The translations under genes and the position numbers were made by a program. DNA of 45,968 nucleotides from Treponema sp. (GTDB lineage: Bacteria; Spirochaetota; Spirochaetia; Treponematales; Breznakiellaceae). The stretch is taken from contig JAISSH010000024.1 in the NCBI GenBank assembly GCA_031273265.1, forward strand, positions 1 to 45,968, read 5' to 3'. This document shows positions 1,074-45,968 of this stretch, piece after piece. A model generated the notes under the pieces. The model did not search any database, was not told where the DNA came from, and was given only the letters and a program-made list of their open reading frames with translations. The number at the start of each line of letters is the position of its first letter. Position 1 is the first letter of the stretch.

Positions 1074-3935
1074 ATGGACAAATTAATCATCAAGGGCGCG
1101 CGCGAGCATAACCTTAAAAACATCGACCTTGAACTGCCCCGCGACAGACTCATCGTTATTTCAGGGCTCTCCGGTTCAGGCAAAAGTTCACTGGCCTTCG
1201 ACACGATTTTCGCCGAGGGGCAAAGGCGCTATGTCGAAAGCCTGTCCGCCTACGCGAGGCAGTTTTTGGGGCGCATGGACAAGCCCGATTTGGACTACAT
1301 CGAGGGGCTCTCCCCGGCAATTTCAATCGAGCAAAAAACCACCCACCGCAACCCGCGCTCCACTGTCGGCACCGTAACAGAAATCTACGATTACTACCGC
1401 CTGCTCTACGCGCGGATCGGCGTCCCCCACTGCCCCGTCTGCGGAAAGGAAATCCGTGAACAGCCGGTCGACTCGATTAGCGAGACGATTCTGCAGTTCA
1501 AAGAAGGCGCGAAGATTCAACTGCTCGCGCCCGTCATTCGCGGAAAAAAGGGAGAACATCAAAAAATAATCGAGGACGCGCGCAAGGCGGGTTTCGCGCG
1601 CGCGAGGATAGACGGCGTTCCCGTAAACCTTGACGAAAGCATCAAGCTGGACAAACAAAAAAAACACTCAATCGAAATTATCGTTGACCGCCTTGTGATT
1701 GGAAAGGATATTCGCTCGCGCCTCGCGGAGTCGGTTGAAACCGCCTTGCAAACATCGGACGGGCTTATGCAGGTTCTTGTTAATGAGGACGGAAAAAACA
1801 GTGAACATTTTTTCTCGCAGAAAAATTCCTGCCCCGACTGCGGCGTGTCGATCCCTGAATTGCAGCCGAGGCTTTTTTCGTTTAACAATCCCTTCGGCGC
1901 GTGCCCGGGCTGCACCGGCCTTGGAGCGAAACTTGAGTTTGATCCAGACCTCGTTATCCCCGACCGCACTCTCTCCTTTAACGAGGGCGGCGTTATCCCT
2001 TACAATCCCGACAGCGCGTGGAACCGCAGCCGCTTTCAGAGCCTCGCCAAACATTACGGTTTCAGTCTTGACGTGCCGTTTAACAAATTGCCAAAAAAAG
2101 TTGTAAACGCGATTCTTTACGGCAGCGACGATGAAATAAAGGTGCGTTATGTGAACCGCGAAGGGACGAGTCATTTTCAATACCAGTCGGTATTCCCGGG
2201 AATTCTGGAAGAACTCAAGCGCCGTTATCTTGAAACGCAGTCGCAGGGCGTTAAGGACTGGCTTGAAAAATTTATGAGCCAGAAACCATGCGAGGACTGC
2301 GGCGGCAAACGCCTCAAGCCCGAAGTGTTAGCTGTAACTGTCGCCGGGAAAAATATCTGGGAACTTTCCGAACTTTCGGTAACGGACTCTCTCAATTTTT
2401 TTGAAACGGTAAAATTCAGCAAGAACGAAAATAAAATCGCGCATCAGATACTAAAGGAAATTAACGCGCGTCTTGGCTTTATGAAGAACGTGGGTCTCGA
2501 TTACCTCAGTCTTGAGCGCAAGGCGGCAACTCTCTCAGGCGGTGAAGCCCAACGGATAAGGCTTGCCACGCAGATAGGCTCAAGTCTTGTGGGCGTGCTT
2601 TACATTCTCGACGAGCCGTCTATCGGGCTTCACCAGAGAGACAACCAGCGGCTGATAGATACGCTGTTGTACCTACGCGACCTGGGTAACACGCTGATCG
2701 TAGTCGAGCATGACGAACAAACATTGCGTACCGCCGACCACATCGTCGATCTGGGACCGGGCGCAGGCGTCCACGGCGGACGTGTTGTCGCGCAGGGTAC
2801 GCCCGAAGATGTAATGAAGGTGAAGGAGAGCCTTACAGGTCAGTATCTGGCAGGCACCCTTTTCATCGACATTCCCGAACAGCGCAGAAAAGGAAACGGC
2901 GCGTTTTTAAAATTGCGCGGAGTGAGCGAACACAACCTTAAAAACATAAACGTGGAAATTCCGCTTGGACTTTTTACTTGCATCACGGGCGTTTCCGGTT
3001 CGGGAAAATCGACCTTGCTTTCGGACGTTCTCTACCCTGCCCTGTTCAACAAAATCTACGATTCAAACCACATTGAAGGCGAGTATAAAAAAATTGACGG
3101 CGCGGAACACATCGACAAGGTGATCGATATCGATCAGAGTCCCATCGGCAGAACGCCGAGATCAAATCCGATAACCTACGTTGAGGGCTTTACCGCAATC
3201 CGCGATCTTTTTTCCAATCTGCCAGACTCAAAAATGAGGGGCTACAAACCCGGACGCTTTTCATTTAACGTCAGGGGCGGCAGGTGCGAAAACTGCGAAG
3301 GGGACGGCACTATCAAAATCGAGATGAACTTTCTCCCCGATGTTTACATAACGTGCGACGTGTGTCAGGGCAAGCGTTTTAACAAAGAGACCCTCGAAAT
3401 CCGTTACAAAGGGAAAAACATCTCCGATGTCTTGGACATGACCATAGAAGAGGCGGCTGTTTTTTTCGCCCCTATTCCACAGATTGCCCGCAAAATGCAG
3501 ACTTTGCCCTCTGTGGGCCGCGGTTATGTGAAACTGGGACAGTCCGCGCTCACGCTTTCAGGCGGTGAGGCACAACGTGTTAAACTCGCGCTGGAACTTT
3601 CAAAACGCTCTACAGGCAGAACCCTCTACATTCTGGACGAACCGACTACCGGCCTTCACTTCGCCGACGTAAAACAGTTAATGGACGTGATTCAAAGACT
3701 GGTAGATCAGGGAAATACTGTTATAATGATAGAACACAACCTCGACGTGCTTTTGCAGGCGGATCACATTATCGATCTGGGACCGGAAGGCGGCGATAAA
3801 GGCGGATATGTTATCGCGGTTGGCACGCCGGAAGAGGTGGCGAAAAACGCGGATTCCTACACGGGCGCATACATCGCCAAAATGCTGAAACGAAACGCGC
3901 CGCGTAAAAGTACGAGAAAAAACGGGTGGAAATGA
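1074..3935 (+). CDS. uvrA: Excinuclease ABC subunit A
   Basis: UvrA is the damage-recognition ATPase of nucleotide excision repair and loads UvrB onto lesions. The 953-residue protein carries both ABC ATPase modules: Walker [10 protein letters not shown] at residues 31-39 and GVSGSGKST from 639, two LSGGEAQR signatures, and Walker B boxes ending in LDEPSIGLH and LDEPTTGLH. The zinc modules are present (CPVCG, CPDCG, CPGC and CEDCGG in the first half; CENCEGDG with CDVCQGKR in the second). I chose the ATG at 1074 because [14 protein letters not shown] is the normal UvrA N-terminus; the frame is open 48 nt further upstream without family similarity. No clear ribosome site precedes it. The stop overlaps the next start by 4 nt (ATGA), so the two genes are translationally coupled. 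Confidence 0.98.
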
Positions 3936-6900
3936 AATATAAGCGTGGTTGTATATTCTTCATTCTTTGTTTTTTCGCTTTTCCGCTTTTTGCGCAGGAA
4001 GCCCCGGCAGAAACGGAAGAAACGCCGCTTTCCGAAGAACAGGAGATTGCCGGCGAAGACGTACCCAATGAAGACCAAATAGCGCTGGAAGATGAAACGC
4101 CCGTTGAAATTCAAGATGAAGGTCCGAAAGTTCCTGAAAAGGAACAACAGCGTATAGAACTTGAACTAAAAACATCAACTCTGCCTGAACTCGCGGCGTG
4201 GTGTCGTTCTTTGGGACTTTCCGAGGGCGGCACAAGGGCGGAACTCGCAAGTAGAATCAGAGAGCATTTCAGGATGTCAGAACAGGAAAAAGCAGACGCT
4301 GAAAACCAGAAAATAATAACCATTGAATCCGCGCAGACAACCGAATATTTCAGTATAGATGTGATTGATGAAGATTATGCAAGGTTAAAAGGCGAAGTAC
4401 GCATCATCTTGCGGGATAAAGAAGATGAACATAGAATAAAAGCGGATGAAATAATATTCAACCGCACAAGAAATATTCTCACTGCCATAGGAAACGTTGA
4501 ATATACAAAAGTGAAAGGCGATACGACGGAAATTTTTCGCGGTAAAAATATTACAGTTAACATTGATAACTGGGCAAGTATTTTTCTGGACGGTAATTCA
4601 GATCGGATGCTTGAGAGCGAAGAAGGAACGGCATACCGTTTTAAGGGAGCGGTAATTTCAATCACGGAAGACGATGTAATGATCCTCAGAAAAGCCGAAA
4701 TAAGCAACGCATACAACGGGGAGGCTCTCTGGTCGATAACCGCGTCAAGGCTCTGGCTGCTTCCGGGTTCCGACTTCGCGATCTTTAACGCGTGGTTAAA
4801 AGTAGGCGAAATTCCTGTCTTATACATTCCTTTTTTCTTCTTTGCCGCCGATGACGTAATTTTTCGTCCTGTTATAGGTTACCGTACTAGAGAGGGAGGT
4901 TTTGTCCAGACCACCACTTATATACTGGGACGTCCAAAAGCGGATGCCACCGCAGAGCAGAGTTCTATCACCAGAATTATGGGAAACTCAAGCGACATGG
5001 AAAGAGAGCGTCAGGGGATATTTCTGCGCAGTACCGGAAAAAAAGTAAAAGACCCAAACGAAATCAGCTTGAAATTTATGGCAGACTATTATACCAATTT
5101 GGGCGCGTATTTGGCTGTTGATTTTTCCATGCCAAAAAAAGGAATCCTAAATCCGCTGGATTTTTCTATAGGCTTCGGTTTGTCCAGAACCCTTAGCCCG
5201 ATGGCTGAATACTACACCCCTTATGCTCCGAATTATGACGGTACCTTTGAAAAAGATTATTCAAACCTTTTTTCAAAATCGGTCCCGTTCCGTTACAGAT
5301 TAAAAACAAGCAGTTCAATAAACGGAAAATACGGAAGCCTTTCGTGGGATTTTCCGTTTTATTCAGATCCCACAATGGATAAGGATTTTTTATCCCGCGC
5401 GGAAAGCATGGATTGGATGAATATGCTTCAACAAGGCGCGGCGGTGGAAGATGAGATATTAACAGAAAATGATATAAGCTCATATCAATGGCAAATGAGC
5501 GGAAATTTCAACCCGCAACTGAAAGTTTTAGCTCCGTATGTTAACAATATATCCTTAACCAATATATCCACAACATTGGCGTTTAAATCAATAATGGATA
5601 AAGACATCTACAACGTTAATAAAGAAAATCCCGCCAGCTTTTTCTTTGCTCCTGATAAATACACTATTTACAACGCGTCTGTCTCTATTTCGGGCACGCC
5701 CCTGTCAATCGGCGGACAAGGACAGGCAAGCGCGGCAGATTCAAAAACAAAAGAAGAAGAGACAAATAATCCGCTTAAGGACATTGGCACGCCAAGATCT
5801 CCATGGATAACTAAAGAAGAGGAAGAAAAGATTAAAGCGTCAAACGATGATAAATTAATTCCTCCCGTATTGAACCAGCGTTTTGATCTTCCAAAAGCGG
5901 GAAACTTGAAATTCGGCATTGATTACCAATTGTCGCCTACAAGTTCGTCAGAACTTCAATTCATTTCAGGATATGACCGCTGGCAGAAAAATGATCAGGT
6001 AAACTGGGGCGATATTCAGTCGGTATTAACCGGCGTTGGCGGCAACGGCAGCGTGAATTTCCGCGTGGATCATTCAAGCGGATTGTTTTCCAATACCGTA
6101 ACTTTTTCAGGCAGCGGCACATGGCGCGATTACACATATATAAATGAAGAAGCCGAAGCGTTTCGCACATCGCAGAGAGTCAACGGAGAAATTGTTTACG
6201 GAGAAACCGATGAAGACAAGATATTGGCGGCAAGAAAACAGCAGTACAGACAAACCAACTACACTACGTCTTATGCGTATAACGGCACTGTAAGACCGCT
6301 GTATGACAACCCGATATTCGGACAATCCAATGTGCAATACAGTTTCAGAGGCACGCTTGTTCGGTCCAAAAAATATGAAGACGGAGACGGTCCTGAACTG
6401 AGACCGCAATGGGGCGTATGGGCAAAAGAAGAAACAAAGGACGGAGTAGATATATACGGGCTTAACAGCCATAAAATTGCGGGCAACATTGCGGCTAACA
6501 TCATGGACTATCAGCAAAATATGTCGATTTCCGCGGATCTTCCTCCGTTTGATCCGTTGATTTCAACTAACGCTACGTTTAGGGCGTGGATTTCCGAAAC
6601 AAACGCCCGCATAGATTTTAAGAAACCGGAGATGATCAATAATGTGCCGAATGAAGAATGGATAAAAGACCCGTTTCATCTGACGGAAACCCTCAAATTC
6701 GGAAAAGCCAACTCATTTTCATATTATATGGTTGTGGATCCGGAAGAAAACAATGAAATTACCACCATTACGTCGTCGCTTACACTATGGTCTTTTAGAG
6801 CGTCATTTTCGGCGACGAAATCTTTAAAGTACGAATTTAATTATAATGACCCGGACGATACTACCAAGGGGGGGGCATGGCAGCAGACAGATGACGATCC

Positions 6901-7477
6901 CGCTCTGCATCCTAGAGATTTAACACTCACCTATAATCCTACATTTTCAAATATTGACATAATAAAAGACAGGCTGAAATTTTCATTAAATTTGAATACC
7001 AGGCTCTTTTTTGACCTTCAGCGTTACACAAATTCAAACTTTCAATTTACATTGGGATTTACCTTTAACATCGTCAAATTTCTGGATTTGACATTATCCG
7101 CTACATCCGAAAACACTGTCGTTTTCCGGTATTTCAAAGGTATGCCCGGAATGGAAGATTTAACCGCGATGTATATCGACGGGGATCAAAACAATATTTT
7201 TATTGATTTATTCGATTCATTTAACTTTGGCGATGATACAAAAAGACAGCGATCGGGGTTTAAAATCAAAAGCCTCAACCTTACAGCCGTACATCATCTT
7301 GGAGATTGGACTGCCGAATTGGGTCTCAGTGTGGCGCCCTATCTTAACAATAATGTAAACCCGGCAAAATATGAGCTAAACACGGAATTATCATTCCTGG
7401 TGCAATGGTCGGCAATCACCGAGATTAAAACAGATCTAAGGTACGAAAAGAGAACCGAAAAATGGACAAAGGAATAG
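3932..7477 (+). CDS. LptD-like outer membrane protein with OstA domain and SAP-like motif
   Basis: A large secreted protein of 1181 residues. It starts with a signal peptide (hydrophobic residues 8-20, likely cut near FAQ). An acidic linker follows, then a SAP-like motif at about 81-113 ([26 protein letters not shown]), then an LptA/OstA-type beta-jellyroll at about 128-225. The remaining 900 residues are rich in aromatic, alternating beta-strand sequence typical of a C-terminal outer membrane barrel. LptD homologues insert lipopolysaccharide, and related proteins exist in treponemes, some of which lack LPS, so the cargo here is uncertain. An in-frame GTG at 3926 is an alternative start; the ATG at 3932 gives an ATGA overlap with uvrA. 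A SAP motif, normally a nucleic-acid-binding element, is unexpected in a secreted protein. Confidence 0.8.
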
Positions 7478-37746: not shown

Positions 37747-39933
37747 ATGGGTCTTAGAATTAAGTTAATAGGCATCATCCTTGCGATGGTTCTGGTAGTT
37801 CTCGTAATTTTCGCGGTTATCACTCTCAGGCAGTCCGCAAATTTGCAGAGAGAGGCAACGTATGAGTATGCCAGTGAGATGGCCTACTCCAGTTCGCTTC
37901 AAGTCCAGCGGCGTATAGAAAGCTTCACCTCTGCCGTAGAAATGCTTTCACAGGTATTCAGCGATTTTGAGAATACTGAGGTAGATGTTCGAAGGACCAG
38001 ATTTAACGGTCTGTTAAACAGTACAATCGAGCAAAACAAAGAGATTATGGGTATCTTTACCGCTTGGCTTCCGAACAGCATAGACGGCAATAGCACACAA
38101 TACCAGACATTCTATACGCGCAGGAGAACCGGCAATGTGGAATTTATGCCCGCAGGTTACGAAGGCTGGCAGAATTATCTTTCAAATATGGCCGCAAGTG
38201 GAAAGCCAAATTTAGAGTCGCCTGTCTGGAGGGATATTTTCGGACGCGGGTGGGTTCCCATAATATCCGTCCAATATCCTGTAAAAAACAACGCCGGCAG
38301 GACTGTCGGAGTAATCGGGATCAACTTCGTGAGCGCCATGCAGTCTATTGTTGACAATTTGGTACAGCGAATATACAACGGCGCAGGAGTAGCCGCTACA
38401 TATTCCCATGAGGGCGTGACTATCGCCCATTACGTTCAGGACAGGATAGAGGGAAATATCGAAACCAACGAAGGGGAAATTGACCTGCTTGGGGATCAGC
38501 ACAGCAGGGTGGTTCGGGCGATTAAGAACGGCGGCGAAAACGGACAGCCGGTTATACTGGACCGGTATTCTAAGGTTTTAGGAACGGAACTGCACCTTAT
38601 TTATCAACCTATCACTGTTTCAAACATGGAAAACAAGTGGACTATTATGGTGGGAATCCCCGCAGATGAAATAAATAGACCCATCCGGAACATGATAGTC
38701 TTTTCGCTGATTTTCGCGGTAGTCATACTTGTTTTAATCGCGTTTATTACTTTCTTTGTCGTTCAAGGCATTGTCAAACCGATAATCAACGTAACCCTCA
38801 CCCTCAAGGACATTTCCGAAGGGGAAGGAGACCTGACAAAGAAAATAAACAACAGTTCCAAAGACGAGGTTGGAGATCTTTCCCGCTACTTCAACTCTAC
38901 TTTGGAAAAAATAAAGAACCTTGTCGTCAATATCAAAAGGGAAGCGTCTACATTATCTAACATCGGCAATGACCTTGCGAGTAACATGAATGAGACCGCC
39001 GCCGCGGTGAACGAGATCACCGCCAATATCCAGAGCATCAAGGGGCGCGTAATAAATCAGAGCGCAAGCGTTACAGAAACAAACGCGACAATGGAACAAG
39101 TTACGGTAAACATCAACAAACTCAACGGCCATGTTGAAAACCAGAGTCAAAGCGTATCGCAGGCGTCCGCGGCGATTGAGGAAATGGTAGCCAATATCGC
39201 GTCCGTTACCGACACGCTTGTCAAGAACACCGACAATGTAAGCACCCTGCAGGACGCTTCCGAAGTGGGACGCACCGGACTACAGGACGTAGCGTCGGAC
39301 ATTCAAGAGATAGCCCGCGAATCCGAAGGGCTTTTGGAGATCAACGCGGTAATGGAAAATATCGCGAGCCAGACCAACTTATTGAGCATGAACGCCGCGA
39401 TAGAAGCGGCGCATGCAGGCGAGGCTGGCAAGGGCTTCGCCGTAGTCGCCGATGAAATCCGTAAACTTGCCGAAAGTTCCAGCGAACAGTCAAAGACAAT
39501 CGGCACTGTTTTGAAAAAGATAAAAGACTCAATCGACAAAATCACCAAGTCTACCGAAAACGTACTTAATAAGTTTGAAGCCATTGATTCAAATGTCAAA
39601 ACAGTGGCGCAGCAGGAAGAAAACATCCGCAACGCGATGGAGGAACAAGGACAGGGAAGCAAGCAGATACTTGACGGCATCGAAAAGGTGACGGAAATTA
39701 CGCGCAACGTAAAGAGCGGCTCCAATGAAATGCTTGAAGGCGCTCAGCAGGTAATACTGGAGAGCCAAAACCTTGAAAAAGCGACGCAGGAAATCACTTC
39801 GGGCATGAACGAAATGGCAAGCGGAGCCGATCAGATCAACGTTGCGGTACATCAGGTTAATGCACTGTCAGGCAAGAACCGCGAAGGAATTGACTCTCTG
39901 ATGAAGGAAGTCTCACGCTTTAAGGTCGAATAA
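37747..39933 (+). CDS. Methyl-accepting chemotaxis protein (dCache-type sensor)
   Basis: 728 residues: membrane helix 1 at about 5-27, a 285-residue extracytoplasmic sensor that looks like a double Cache domain (blocks [16 protein letters not shown] and VGVIGINFV), helix 2 at 316-342, HAMP at about 343-395 ([13 protein letters not shown]) and a signalling domain with the tip [20 protein letters not shown]. It would convey an outside signal to CheA/CheW. The usual amino-acid-binding RxWY signature of dCache is not evident, so the ligand is open. It ends SRFKVE without a CheR-docking pentapeptide. AAGGAGA precedes the ATG. Confidence 0.93.
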
Positions 39934-40111: not shown

Positions 40112-42310
40112 ATGAAACTGAAATTTAAACTAAGTGTTATGGTGATCACCATAATGGCAGTCGTAGTAACGGTAATTGCCGTAATTCTCCTGAACAGATC
40201 ATCCGGTTTGATCGTCGGGCTTAATACCGACGGCATTGGTTACATAGCCAAAGGTCAGGCGGATTACTGGCAGATCCGTCAGGCTAGGCGCTTGCAGATA
40301 CTTAAAACTCTGGCGGATGTAATGGCGAATTATGAGGATATAGCCCCCGATGAAAGGCGGGACATGTTCGATAAAATACTGTCAGGTGTCATAACAAGTA
40401 ATTCGGATATAAACACTTTGTATACTGTATGGAAGCCAAACGCCATTGACGGCATGGACTCACGCTTTGTAGGCAGACCGGGATCAACCACTACGGGACA
40501 GTACGCCTTGGCCTGTTCCATGGAAACCGGGCGTTTGGAATTGCGGATGGCCTCCGATTTAGACGACTCCATAGCTCATATTAACGGCCCTAACGCGAAA
40601 AAAGACAGGGTGCTGACTCCCTTTCCACGGGAAATACAGGGAAAGACCGTTTATCTGATAAGGGAGGTGGTTCCCATTGTGAACCCTCGTACCAATGAAG
40701 TAGTAGGGAGCGTAGGCTGCACGTTTGACGCGTCCGCAATACAGCAGGGGCTGGAAGCAGTCTTAAAAGAAAACGAAGTAGTTTCACTGATGGCGATTTA
40801 CGACAACACCGGGTTTGTTATAGCGAGCTACGTACCCGACCGTATAGGCAAAAACATGCGCGATGTGGATACAGCATATGGCAGCAATGCCAATGACGCC
40901 TTCCAGACAATTCAAAGAGGAGAGAGTAAACTGTACAGCGGTTACTCGGCGATCGTTAACAGCAATGTACAGATGGAGTTACAGTCTTTCCAAATAGGTA
41001 ATTCAGACACGACATGGACGGTAATGGTAGGGGCTACCGAAGCTTTCATGCTGCTTGAGGTAAATGAGATGACCGCGTTTACCATAGTACTGGCGTTATT
41101 TGCCATCGCGATGTCGGCGGCAATCGTTTTCTTTGTCCTTACCAGAACCGTCAAACCGATAGTTACGGTAGCTGATACCCTCAAGGATATTGCTCAGGGC
41201 GAAGGGGATCTTACCAGAACTGTTAACGTCAATTCCAAGGACGAAGTAGGCGATCTGGCCAAATACTTTAATCAGACTTTGGATAAAATTAAAAAACTGG
41301 TTATCATCATTAAAAACGAAGCGTCGAAGTTATCTGACATAGGCAACGATCTTTCGAGCAACATGACTGAGACCGCCGCCGCCGTGAATGAAATTACAGC
41401 TAACATCCAGAGTATTAAGAGCCGCGTATTAAACCAGAGTGCGAGCGTAACCGAGACAAACGCGACAATGGAACAGGTTACGGTGAACATCAACAAACTC
41501 AACAGCCATGTAGAAGCCCAAAGTCAAAACGTATCTCAGGCGTCGGCGGCGATTGAGGAAATGGTAGCCAATATCTCGTCCGTTACCGATACACTTGTCA
41601 AGAACGCGGCCAATGTAGACACCTTGCAGGACGCCTCCGAAGTCGGGCGCACGGGGCTTCAGGACGTAGCGACCGATATTCAGGAAATTGCCCGCGAATC
41701 CGAGGGCCTGCTGGAAATTAACTCTGTAATGGAAAATATCGCAAGTCAAACAAACTTATTGAGCATGAACGCAGCGATAGAGGCGGCGCACGCGGGCGAG
41801 GCGGGAAAAGGCTTTGCCGTAGTTGCCGATGAAATCCGCAAACTTGCGGAAAGTTCAAGCGAGCAGTCAAAAACCATCGGCACTGTACTCAAAAAGATAA
41901 AAGAGGCCATCGACAAGATTACCAAGTCTACAGAAAACGTGCTTGCGCGGTTCGAAGCGATAGACACAAATGTAAAGACGGTAGCCCAGCAGGAGGAGAC
42001 TATCCGCAACGCGATGGAAGAACAGGGACAGGGAAGCAAGCAGGTTCTTACCGGAATTGAGCAGGTAACCGAAATTACGCGCAATGTAAAGAGCGGCTCC
42101 AATGAAATGCTTGAAGGGGCGCAGCAGGTAATTCAGGAGAGCCAAAACCTTGAAAAAGTAACGCAGGAAATCACATCGGGCATGAACGAAATGGCGGCCG
42201 GAGCCGACCAGATCAACATCGCGGTACATCAGGTTAACGACCTGTCAAGCAGAAACCGCGACGGCATCGGCTCTCTTATAAAAGAAGTTTCCAAGTTTAA
42301 AGTTGAATAA
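40112..42310 (+). CDS. Methyl-accepting chemotaxis protein (Cache-type sensor)
   Basis: 732 residues: helix 1 at about 7-27, sensor of about 290 residues with Cache-like blocks ([50 protein letters not shown] in parts), helix 2 at 320-345, HAMP with [13 protein letters not shown], and a signalling domain close to that of the first MCP. The sensor differs from the other three, so its ligand probably differs too. It ends SKFKVE. GGAAGGAAGGG lies before the ATG. Confidence 0.93.
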
Positions 42311-42594: not shown

Positions 42595-44778
42595 ATGAAA
42601 ATAGGAACAAAATTAATGGTCATTATCACCGCGGTAAATCTGGCCGGCATCGGCGGCTTAACTATCAGCTCGGTGGTGTTTGCGTCAAGACAGAGTACCT
42701 CTCTGGCGGAGCAGACTATCATTGACGCCGCCGTGACTACCGCAGATAAAATCCAACTCTATCTGGAAGTTGCCCTGGACGAGATTCGGGCTGTGGCTCA
42801 GATTGCGGACCATTTAGATGAATTTCCTCTGGAAGAACGGAGGAATGAACTTAGTTTTATGCTGCAAAGCCTTACGAAAGAAAATCCCGATTTTGTGGGA
42901 GTTTGGGCGGCTTTTGAAGCCAATGCCCTTGACGGCAGGGACGCCTTCTATGTCAATACGCCCGCAACCGACGAAACAGGAAAGTACGGAAGTTACTACC
43001 AAAATGTAAACGGGACAGTAACGCTTGAGCCGCTGGGAAATTTTAGCGTAGAAGATTATTATCTAACCTCTTTTAGATCGGGCAAGGAGGGGTTTATTGA
43101 GCCTTATTTTGAGCAGGTAGGAGATAAGCAGGTGCTTATTACCAGCCTTACCGTTCCGATTACGCGTAACGGACGAGTAGTAGGGGTAGCCGGGGTAGAC
43201 TTGGAACTGACGGATATTCAGCGCATGGCTGAGAATGTCAAACCCTTAGGAACCGGAGTCGTAGGAATATTCAGCCAGCAGGGAATTATTATAGCTCATC
43301 CCGATCCCGACCGGCTGGGAAAACAAATGCGGGATACCGAGGCGGATATGGTTGGGGAATATCTGCCCACTTTGGTTGACGCGGTAGCGAACAGCAAGGA
43401 TTTGTCATCGACGTTTTTCTCACCCGCGCTCAATTCCCGTTTTAACCTTGCGGTACACGCGAGGAAAATCGGAGGCTCTGTTACCCCTTTGGCGGTGGCA
43501 ATACTCGTGCCTTCTTTGACCATCATGGCTCCGATTTACCAAATGACCACGTTTTTAATTATTTTTGGCGTAATCGTACTGTTGGTTATCTCCATTATTG
43601 TTTTTATTGTATCTCGCTCCATTACCTCTCCTCTTAAGTCTATGGAGGCGGTCTTTAATGTTATCGGCGAAGGAGATTTTACCCCGACATTGACCGCCAA
43701 GAGCAACGATGAAATCGGGAACATAAGCCGCTCCTTTAACAGCACTCTGGAAAAAATACGGAAACTCATTAAAACTATCAAGGATCAGGCGGCGTCTCTC
43801 TCTGAAATCGGCAGCGATCTGGCGAGCAATATGAACGAAACCGCCGCCGCCGTGAACGAAATTACTGCCAACATCCAGAGCATCAAAGGCCGCATTATCA
43901 ATCAGAGCGCAAGCGTAACCGAAACAAACGCGACAATGGAACAGGTTACGGTAAACATCAACAAACTCAACGGCCATGTAGAAAAACAGACTCAAAATGT
44001 ATCGCAGGCGTCGGCGGCAATAGAGGAAATGGTAGCCAATATCTCGTCCGTTACCGATACGCTGGTCAAAAACGGAGCCAACGTAAAATCCCTGCAGGAA
44101 GCCTCAGAAGTGGGACACTCAGGCCTGCAGGAGGTGGCGGCGGACATTCAGGAAATCGCCCATGAATCCGAAGGCTTGCTTGAGATTAACGCCGTAATGG
44201 AAAATATCGCCAGCCAAACCAACCTGCTTTCGATGAACGCCGCGATAGAGGCGGCGCACGCCGGAGAGTCAGGTAAGGGGTTCGCGGTAGTCGCCGCCGA
44301 AATCCGCAAACTGGCGGAAAATTCCAGCGCGCAGTCCAAGACCAGCAGCAAAGAAAAAAAAAAGATAAAGAGTTCAATTGACAAGATCACAAAATCCACC
44401 GAAAACGTACTGAACAAGTTTGAAGCCATAGACACAACCGTAAAGACTGTAGCGCAGCAGGAAGAGACCATCCGCAACGCGATGGAGGAGCAGGGACAGG
44501 GAAGCAAACAAATACTTGACGGCATCGAAAAGGTGACGGAAATCACGCGCAATGTAAAGAGCGGCTCCAATGAAATGCTTGAAGGCGCTCAACAGGTAAT
44601 AATTGAGAGCCAAAACCTTGAAAAAGCGACGCAGGAAACCACTTCCGGTATGAACGAGATGGCAGGCGGAGCCGATGAGATCAACACTGCGGTACATCAG
44701 TTGAACGAGATTTCAGGCAAGAACCGCGAATGGATCGACATCCTTGTTAAGGAAGTCGCCAAGTTCAAAGTTGAGTAA
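42595..44778 (+). CDS. Methyl-accepting chemotaxis protein (dCache sensor) with altered signalling tip
   Basis: 727 residues: helix 1 at about 7-28, a dCache-like sensor with [34 protein letters not shown] and [12 protein letters not shown], helix 2 at 317-342, HAMP and signalling domain. After the tip ([18 protein letters not shown]) the sequence departs from the other copies: it has [20 protein letters not shown] then [10 protein letters not shown], where they have [20 protein letters not shown] and GTVLKKIK. The changed part holds a run of ten A (44354-44363). It may be a degenerating receptor or one tuned for different methylation or packing. It ends AKFKVE. Confidence 0.92.
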
Positions 44779-44868: not shown

Positions 44869-45968
44869 ATGAAAATTCGCAGAAAGCTTCTTGTCGGTTT
44901 CTCTATTGTTGTCGCGATAGGAATTTTTCTCGGCGTACTGGGATTATATATCGACACAAGACTTACATCTTTATCCGAGGATGTTCTTGATTTGGCGAAT
45001 ACAAGATCAAGTATCTCGTCTATATTAAGTTCGCATTATGTCTGGAGGCACGGCCTGTCCGAAACGGTTTATTCCGAAGCGGCGTTCACAGGCTCCCTTG
45101 ATTCTACTACTTGCTCTCTGGGCAGATGGGTTAACAGTGATGAGGCAAAAGGAATGACCGATCCGGAGGTTGTTTCAATGCTCAGCCAGATCATCGAGCC
45201 TCACCGTTTCATTCATTCCAAGGCAGGGGAAATTATCGATGATCTTAAAAACGGGGAAACCTCTGATGCGATAACGATATTCAGAGTGGATGTTTTGCCT
45301 AAAACGCTGGAAGTTATCACCGGTTTGGAAAAAATGCAGGAGCAGTATGGCGTTTTGCTTAACAATAAAATAGATGAAATCTACCAAATCGGATCGAAGT
45401 TTAAAAACATCATCATAGTGCTTATAATTGTCGCGTTCGTCGTGGGCGTTCTGGCAATGTTTATTATTGCGTCGCTCATTGCAAAACCAATCGTCATGGT
45501 AGCGGAGACCCTCAAGGATATTGCCCAGGGCGAAGGAGACCTGACCCGTACTGTTAACATCCATTCCAAAGACGAAGTAGGCGACTTGGCAAAATACTTC
45601 AACCAGACACTGGAAAAAATCAAACATCTTGTTATCATCATTAAAAATGAAGCTAAAAAGTTATCCGACATCGGAGCAGACCTTTCCAGCAACATGACCG
45701 AGACAGCGGCAGCCGTGAACGAAATAACCGCCAATATCCAAAACATAAAAGGGCGCGTAATAAACCAGAGCGCAAGCGTAACCGAAACAAACGCGACAAT
45801 GGAACAGGTTACGGTAAACATCAGCAAACTCAACAGCAATGTAGAAAAACAGAGTCAAAATGTGTCGCAGGCGTCGGCGGCAATTGAGGAAATGGTCGCC
45901 AACATCGCGTCCGTTACCGAAACGCTTGTCAAGAACGGAGACAATGTAAAGACCTTGCAGGACGCCTC
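44869..45968 (+). CDS. Methyl-accepting chemotaxis protein with extracytoplasmic CZB-like zinc domain (3' end outside window)
   Basis: 366 codons are visible; the gene runs off the window. Helix 1 is at about 7-27, helix 2 at 181-204, HAMP with [13 protein letters not shown] follows, then the shared signalling domain. Between the helices is a complete CZB pattern: H56-x-x-W59, C82-x-L84-G85-x-W87, H112 and H116, with spacings of 22 and 24 residues that fall in the CZB range. CZB domains bind zinc through three His and one Cys and can sense hypochlorous acid or redox state. In most receptors CZB is at the cytoplasmic C-terminus; here topology puts it outside the membrane. Annotated as partial; the ATG at 44869 follows AAGGGGAAG. 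Confidence 0.88.
   Translation, partial: MKIRRKLLVGFSIVVAIGIFLGVLGLYIDTRLTSLSEDVLDLANTRSSISSILSSHYVWRHGLSETVYSEAAFTGSLDSTTCSLGRWVNSDEAKGMTDPEVVSMLSQIIEPHRFIHSKAGEIIDDLKNGETSDAITIFRVDVLPKTLEVITGLEKMQEQYGVLLNNKIDEIYQIGSKFKNIIIVLIIVAFVVGVLAMFIIASLIAKPIVMVAETLKDIAQGEGDLTRTVNIHSKDEVGDLAKYFNQTLEKIKHLVIIIKNEAKKLSDIGADLSSNMTETAAAVNEITANIQNIKGRVINQSASVTETNATMEQVTVNISKLNSNVEKQSQNVSQASAAIEEMVANIASVTETLVKNGDNVKTLQDA

Follow-up and report, generated by a model that had tools for sequence, protein, structure and literature searches.

The chemoreceptor locus

The window analysed here, the whole 45,968-nucleotide stretch of DNA, is one entire contig of a Treponema sp. genome assembly (2.0 Mb, 136 contigs, 87% complete). 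Between positions 37747 and 45966 the + strand holds a tandem array of four chemoreceptor genes, whose sensors are unrelated and whose HAMP and signalling parts are closely similar. The last of the four, an open reading frame of 366 amino acids without a 3' stop (44869-45966, +; ORF list and translation), is cut at the contig end. The first-pass annotation had described it as a chemoreceptor with a CZB zinc-sensing motif, and translation of the frame bears out the position, the frame and the eight residues that were named: H56, C82, H112 and H116, together with W59, L84, G85 and W87, are all present, and the 3His/1Cys CZB motif occurs in the expected order and spacing. The features of the locus are as follows.

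37747..39933, + strand: chemoreceptor neighbour, first in the tandem cluster
40112..42310, + strand: chemoreceptor neighbour of the CZB receptor
42595..44778, + strand: dCache chemoreceptor neighbour (TM-dCache-TM-HAMP-MCP), within the tandem MCP cluster
44869..45966, + strand: CZB chemoreceptor gene, N-terminal 366 codons (ORF list, translation)
44887..44943, + strand: TM1, residues 7-25, running on into the first helix of the sensor (model helix 2-69; hydropathy, AlphaFold2)
44950..45408, + strand: extracytoplasmic sensor (predicted), residues 28-180, a CZB module of the four-helix-bundle type that holds one Cys
45034..45237, + strand: CZB core, PF13682, residues 56-123 (Pfam profile)
45034..45036, + strand: H56, putative zinc ligand 1 (invariant; aligns with the first His of the DgcZ CZB, 3t9o)
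45112..45114, + strand: C82, putative zinc ligand 2, sole Cys of the loop (invariant; aligned to 3t9o)
45202..45216, + strand: H112 and H116, putative zinc ligands 3 and 4, HxxxH (invariant; aligned to 3t9o)
45409..45465, + strand: TM2, residues 181-199, joined without a break to the last helix of the sensor (model helix 131-202; hydropathy, AlphaFold2)
45466..45624, + strand: HAMP, residues 200-252 (PF00672, E 1.7e-10)

Residues 205-366 of the CZB receptor are identical to the product of gene 40112 at 141 of 161 positions and to that of gene 37747 at 127 of 161, while its sensor shares only 10 of 112 positions with that of gene 40112, and the sensors of the cluster share about 10-18%. This pattern suggests sensor swapping or homogenised signalling domains, and the close similarity of the signalling parts may explain why the assembly breaks at the CZB gene. 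The MCP signalling tip, with the C-terminal half of the gene, would fall beyond the contig end; intact homologues, of about 590-600 amino acids, have the tip. Because the gene is incomplete in the assembly, one could take it for a degenerate or non-functional receptor remnant, a reading that we consider highly improbable: the break coincides with the contig end, and congeners hold intact copies (588-620 amino acids) with all ligands kept.

The dCache receptor shows, just past its signalling tip, a block of 14 residues in place of the neighbours' 16, a local change inside an otherwise near-identical stretch that could be a compensated frameshift or an assembly error. Elsewhere in the window, a 1183-amino-acid protein (3926-7477) adjoins uvrA, and a SAP-type domain near its N-terminus is the sole domain recognised in it. 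Rfam and tRNA scans of the window gave no match.

The CZB domain, its predicted topology and fold

The Pfam CZB profile (PF13682), proposed as a check by the first-pass annotation, is matched over its full length (profile positions 1-64 of 64) by residues 56-123, with a score that varies with the length of sequence supplied and falls on both sides of Pfam's 29.4-bit cut-off: the genome search gave 32.1 bits (E 2.7e-7), the sensor region alone 29.6 bits (E 9.1e-7) and the whole 366-amino-acid fragment 28.5 bits (E 2.1e-6). The match is thus borderline by its own score, and it is clear at the level of sequence once homologues are counted, the profile being matched by 32 of 32 diverse homologues in which the CZB likewise lies between two transmembrane segments (TM-CZB-TM). 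A CZB domain in the window protein is confirmed by these profile matches. The profile PF12729 (4HB_MCP_1) aligned with residues 1-27 only (22.0 bits, against a cut-off of 27), the bundle itself not being matched above the cut-off. A chance motif was also considered and is ruled out by the invariant ligands and the layout shared among relatives.

Hydropathy places transmembrane segments at residues 7-25 and 181-199, with the CZB between them, as the first-pass annotation had it, and the HAMP directly after TM2. The N-terminus (MKIRRK) holds four positive charges and no negative one, which by the positive-inside rule, together with the two membrane segments, the HAMP after TM2 and the MCP architecture, puts the sensor loop outside the cytoplasm. 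In a diderm bacterium such as a spirochaete, outside the cytoplasm means the periplasm, and the CZB sensor is predicted to lie there, at the outer face of the inner membrane. The outward-facing topology claimed earlier is in this way supported by prediction.

AlphaFold2, run on the homologue alignment, gives a model with a mean pLDDT of 95.6 and helices at residues 2-69 (TM1 running into the sensor), 83-88 (short, after the Cys motif), 99-127 and 131-202 (ending in TM2). Foldseek lists the four-helix sensors of MCP2201, Tar and Tsr and the DgcZ CZB (3t9o) among its top matches, none with E < 0.001. By VIA-align, MCP2201 scores Z 14.3 and 3t9o_B Z 12.0 (rmsd 2.8 over 116 residues, covering residues 41-162); neither value is decisive for helical bundles, a Z near 12 being weak by itself, and here the sequence alignment to 3t9o backs the fold match. 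In PDB sequence searches no CZB was found with the window protein or with a profile of the full sensor, and only the CZB-core profile succeeded: it picked up the DgcZ CZB 3t9o (E 6.4e-8) in an alignment that pairs the His, the Cys-x-x-G-x-W and the HxxxH positions. The modelled sensor is thus supported as having a CZB/four-helix-bundle fold, and we infer from the fold match and the alignment to 3t9o that the four ligands would meet in space. Taken together, the fold matches and the 3t9o ligand alignment indicate that this CZB sits where an ordinary chemoreceptor has its four-helix sensor and is built like one, and that it carries a putative zinc site in addition.

Relatives, host and evolution of the receptor

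A CZB match occurs in 21 of 60 close genomes, and the TM-CZB-TM-HAMP layout is shared by 18 genes of the genus, counting that of the window. An even draw across the Spirochaetota gave CZB in 98 of 393 genomes. When the matched CZB stretches were sorted according to their hydropathy and their homology to the MCP signalling domain, the CZB lay between two transmembrane segments in 37 of 116 Spirochaetota CZB proteins (32%) and C-terminal to the signalling domain in 58 of the 116, in both cases outside the genus and with duplicates removed. The survey for N-terminal CZB receptors that had been proposed thus finds the layout to be common in Spirochaetota.

Several variants were seen along the way. 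In two of the 37 (L033 and L040, from two genomes of the same class) a tandem pair of CZBs sits between the transmembrane segments of one chemoreceptor, in about 330 amino acids including both segments. In five receptors of the same class (L014, L121, L126, L127 and L133), also counted among the 37 and representing a longer and different sensor layout, the CZB lies in the second half of an extracytoplasmic MCP sensor of about 300 residues. One congener (L150) has TM1 and the CZB core joined straight to the signalling part, without TM2 and HAMP, a layout that we attribute to deletion or assembly chimera. Four proteins of about 710-730 amino acids (L093, L105, L106 and L110) have an N-terminal CZB (residues ~33-100) before a hydrophobic segment, and gave no MCP match. 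An IMG/VR scan found no relative, and the gene neighbours of related receptors, judged by ORF layout, include no consistent partner except other MCPs.

All four ligands are invariant in a 17-member alignment of the genus, and among 32 diverse TM-CZB-TM sensors, whose identity to the window protein ranges from 16 to 66%, only H56, C82, G85, H112 and H116 are invariant, with W59, D78 and W87 nearly so. Exactly one Cys occurs in 50 of 57 loops of this layout, and one in the loop of the window protein; a lone and fully conserved Cys outside the cytoplasm is to be expected of a metal ligand rather than a disulphide. This conservation also bears on the possibility that the zinc is only structural, locking a four-helix MCP sensor for some other small-molecule ligand, for which it can be said that MCP2201, Tar and Tsr match the fold at least as well as the CZB crystal structure does, and that the zinc affinity of cytoplasmic CZBs is extremely high (PMC8262984); were the site here sub-femtomolar, it might hold its zinc at all times and play a structural part alone. 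We nevertheless consider this unlikely, since the ligands and one Gly are the sole invariants across diverse members and no other conserved pocket is visible, and since zinc occupancy is reported to control output in DgcZ, McpA and TlpD (PMC8262984, PMC13370339, PMC12871147).

The named relatives, at 52-70% identity, are Treponema MAGs, mostly from termite gut; the sample codes Th196, Nt197 and Emb289 stand for the higher termites Termes hospes, Neocapritermes taracua and Embiratermes neotenicus (PMC7024585). Judging from these relatives, the host of the window is a gut spirochaete, most likely of a termite, whose gut is a place of steep physicochemical gradients (PMC3625147). The genome has 13 MCPsignal matches, a CheW and a metal-binding protein of the ZnuA family. 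A search of this genome, 87% complete, gave no match to the CheA dimerisation domain, and CheA is present in 31 of 37 congeners, including all 11 of good quality. In the genus the match to that domain is stretched (371-374 bases for 68 positions) or split into two pieces, which at the sequence level would correspond to some 55 residues inserted into the P3 hairpin of CheA.

In a tree of CZB cores (142 sequences, 99 columns, many weak forks), the main clade of C-terminal CZBs (66 rows, support 95/92) holds no TM-CZB-TM sensor, in agreement with the separate cluster formed by periplasmic CZBs in PMC8262984. The genus sensors and the receptors of four Clostridia MAGs (L151-L154) form one group (support 100/99), with the Clostridia receptors nested among the genus members (support 97/68). 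These four are 37-45% identical to the window sensor, and two of the four MAGs share termite samples with Treponema relatives (Th196P3 and Nt197P3). The tree placement suggests horizontal transfer between Treponema and Clostridia, though it does not prove it. TM-CZB-TM receptor genes number up to three per Treponema genome, and one may tentatively picture, as a possible though rather doubtful extension, a lineage-specific family of external zinc/redox receptors with a modified site that multiplied in gut (mainly termite) Treponema and moved between spirochaetes and Clostridia that inhabit the same guts. If true, a Treponema/Clostridia receptor family without the TlpD-type salt bridge (see below) would serve navigation of redox gradients through periplasmic zinc.

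Proposed zinc reading and comparison with known systems

The explanation that we consider best overall, and probably correct, is a periplasmic CZB receptor that steers the cell by zinc or redox through zinc occupancy. One Zn2+ would be held by H56, C82, H112 and H116 inside the four-helix bundle, its occupancy tracking periplasmic free zinc and falling wherever soluble zinc is depleted, or the Cys thiolate oxidised, under oxidising conditions. Zinc loss or gain would repack the bundle, and since the first helix runs on from TM1 and the last into TM2, the repacking could be passed as a helix shift to the HAMP and then to CheW/CheA. The cell would in this way steer along the zinc/redox gradients of the gut. 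There are precedents for parts of this scheme: zinc has been proposed as the messenger of external redox potential for Salmonella McpA and CZB receptors, through external zinc availability (PMC13370339, preprint), and in TlpD, once zinc is no longer coordinated, the bundle is distorted and helices are displaced towards the kinase tip (PMC12871147, preprint). Outward reading of zinc or oxidants by the window CZB, which the first-pass annotation had suggested, remains a reasonable best reading of the sequence.

In TlpD and DgcZ, HOCl acts on the corresponding Cys (PMC6715182, PMC8262984), and C82 is the sole Cys in the loop, which would fit a direct periplasmic sensor of HOCl-type oxidants acting through C82 oxidation. 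We regard such a sensor as quite improbable here, since a termite gut is not where one would expect neutrophil HOCl, and the 2026 preprint PMC13370339 argues for zinc availability, not direct oxidation, as the general signal; in the gut of an invertebrate, HOCl is a poorer fit than zinc availability or general redox. Our search of the literature found no binding or taxis data for any periplasmic CZB. Because a periplasmic CZB would read external zinc with no need of import, such domains offer a clean test of the external-zinc reading proposed in PMC13370339, for which the Spirochaetota set provides compact constructs (residues 28-180) from a gut habitat with steep gradients.

Among known systems, Tar, Tsr and MCP2201 share with the window protein the TM-four-helix-bundle-TM-HAMP plan and helices continuous with the membrane segments, but their ligands are amino acids or organic acids, and they have no metal centre. 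The CZB of E. coli DgcZ (PDB 3t9o, 4h54) has the fold and ligand positions of the window sensor, as modelled and aligned, yet it drives a cytosolic diguanylate cyclase without membrane helices. In TlpD of Helicobacter pylori and McpA of Salmonella a 3His/1Cys CZB controls a chemoreceptor, as proposed here, and the ligand spacing is alike (H315, C340, H368 and H372 in TlpD against H56, C82, H112 and H116). Their CZB, however, is C-terminal and cytoplasmic, while that of the window protein is N-terminal, between the transmembrane segments and upstream of the HAMP, so that the window protein is not TlpD-like in the sense of having a cytoplasmic C-terminal CZB. The D314-R341 salt bridge beside the zinc site of TlpD (PMC12871147) is also absent, the equivalent pair (the residue before the first His and the residue after the Cys) being S55/S83. 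This pair is uncharged at both positions in 18 of 18 genus members and in all four Clostridia receptors. Among the other CZBs, an acid-base pair in the TlpD order occurs in 6 of 30 that are periplasmic, in 7 of 29 that are C-terminal in membrane proteins and in 6 of 22 that are C-terminal and soluble. The absence of the bridge may change zinc affinity or kinetics.

The closest comparison is with the 384 putative periplasmic CZBs (~3.9%), N-terminal in membrane chemoreceptors, that Perkins et al. catalogued in mBio in 2021 (PMC8262984), a paper whose text does not contain the word Spirochaet-. The view, implicit in the first-pass annotation, that an outward-facing CZB is new finds no support, given this catalogue and the frequency of the layout in Spirochaetota; the annotation's description of CZB as mainly a soluble, C-terminal module is correct in general, with the periplasmic exception already published (PMC8262984). 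The additions made here are modest, namely a higher share of TM-CZB-TM receptors in Spirochaetota and a modified zinc site. Like the CZB predicted for the window protein, those of that catalogue are N-terminal, in the extracytoplasmic part of a membrane MCP, and the position after the Cys is not Arg in either, being Ser in the window protein and poorly conserved or Ala in theirs. No difference is seen between them and the window receptor, whose gene is a further member of this already published class of periplasmic N-terminal CZB chemoreceptors.
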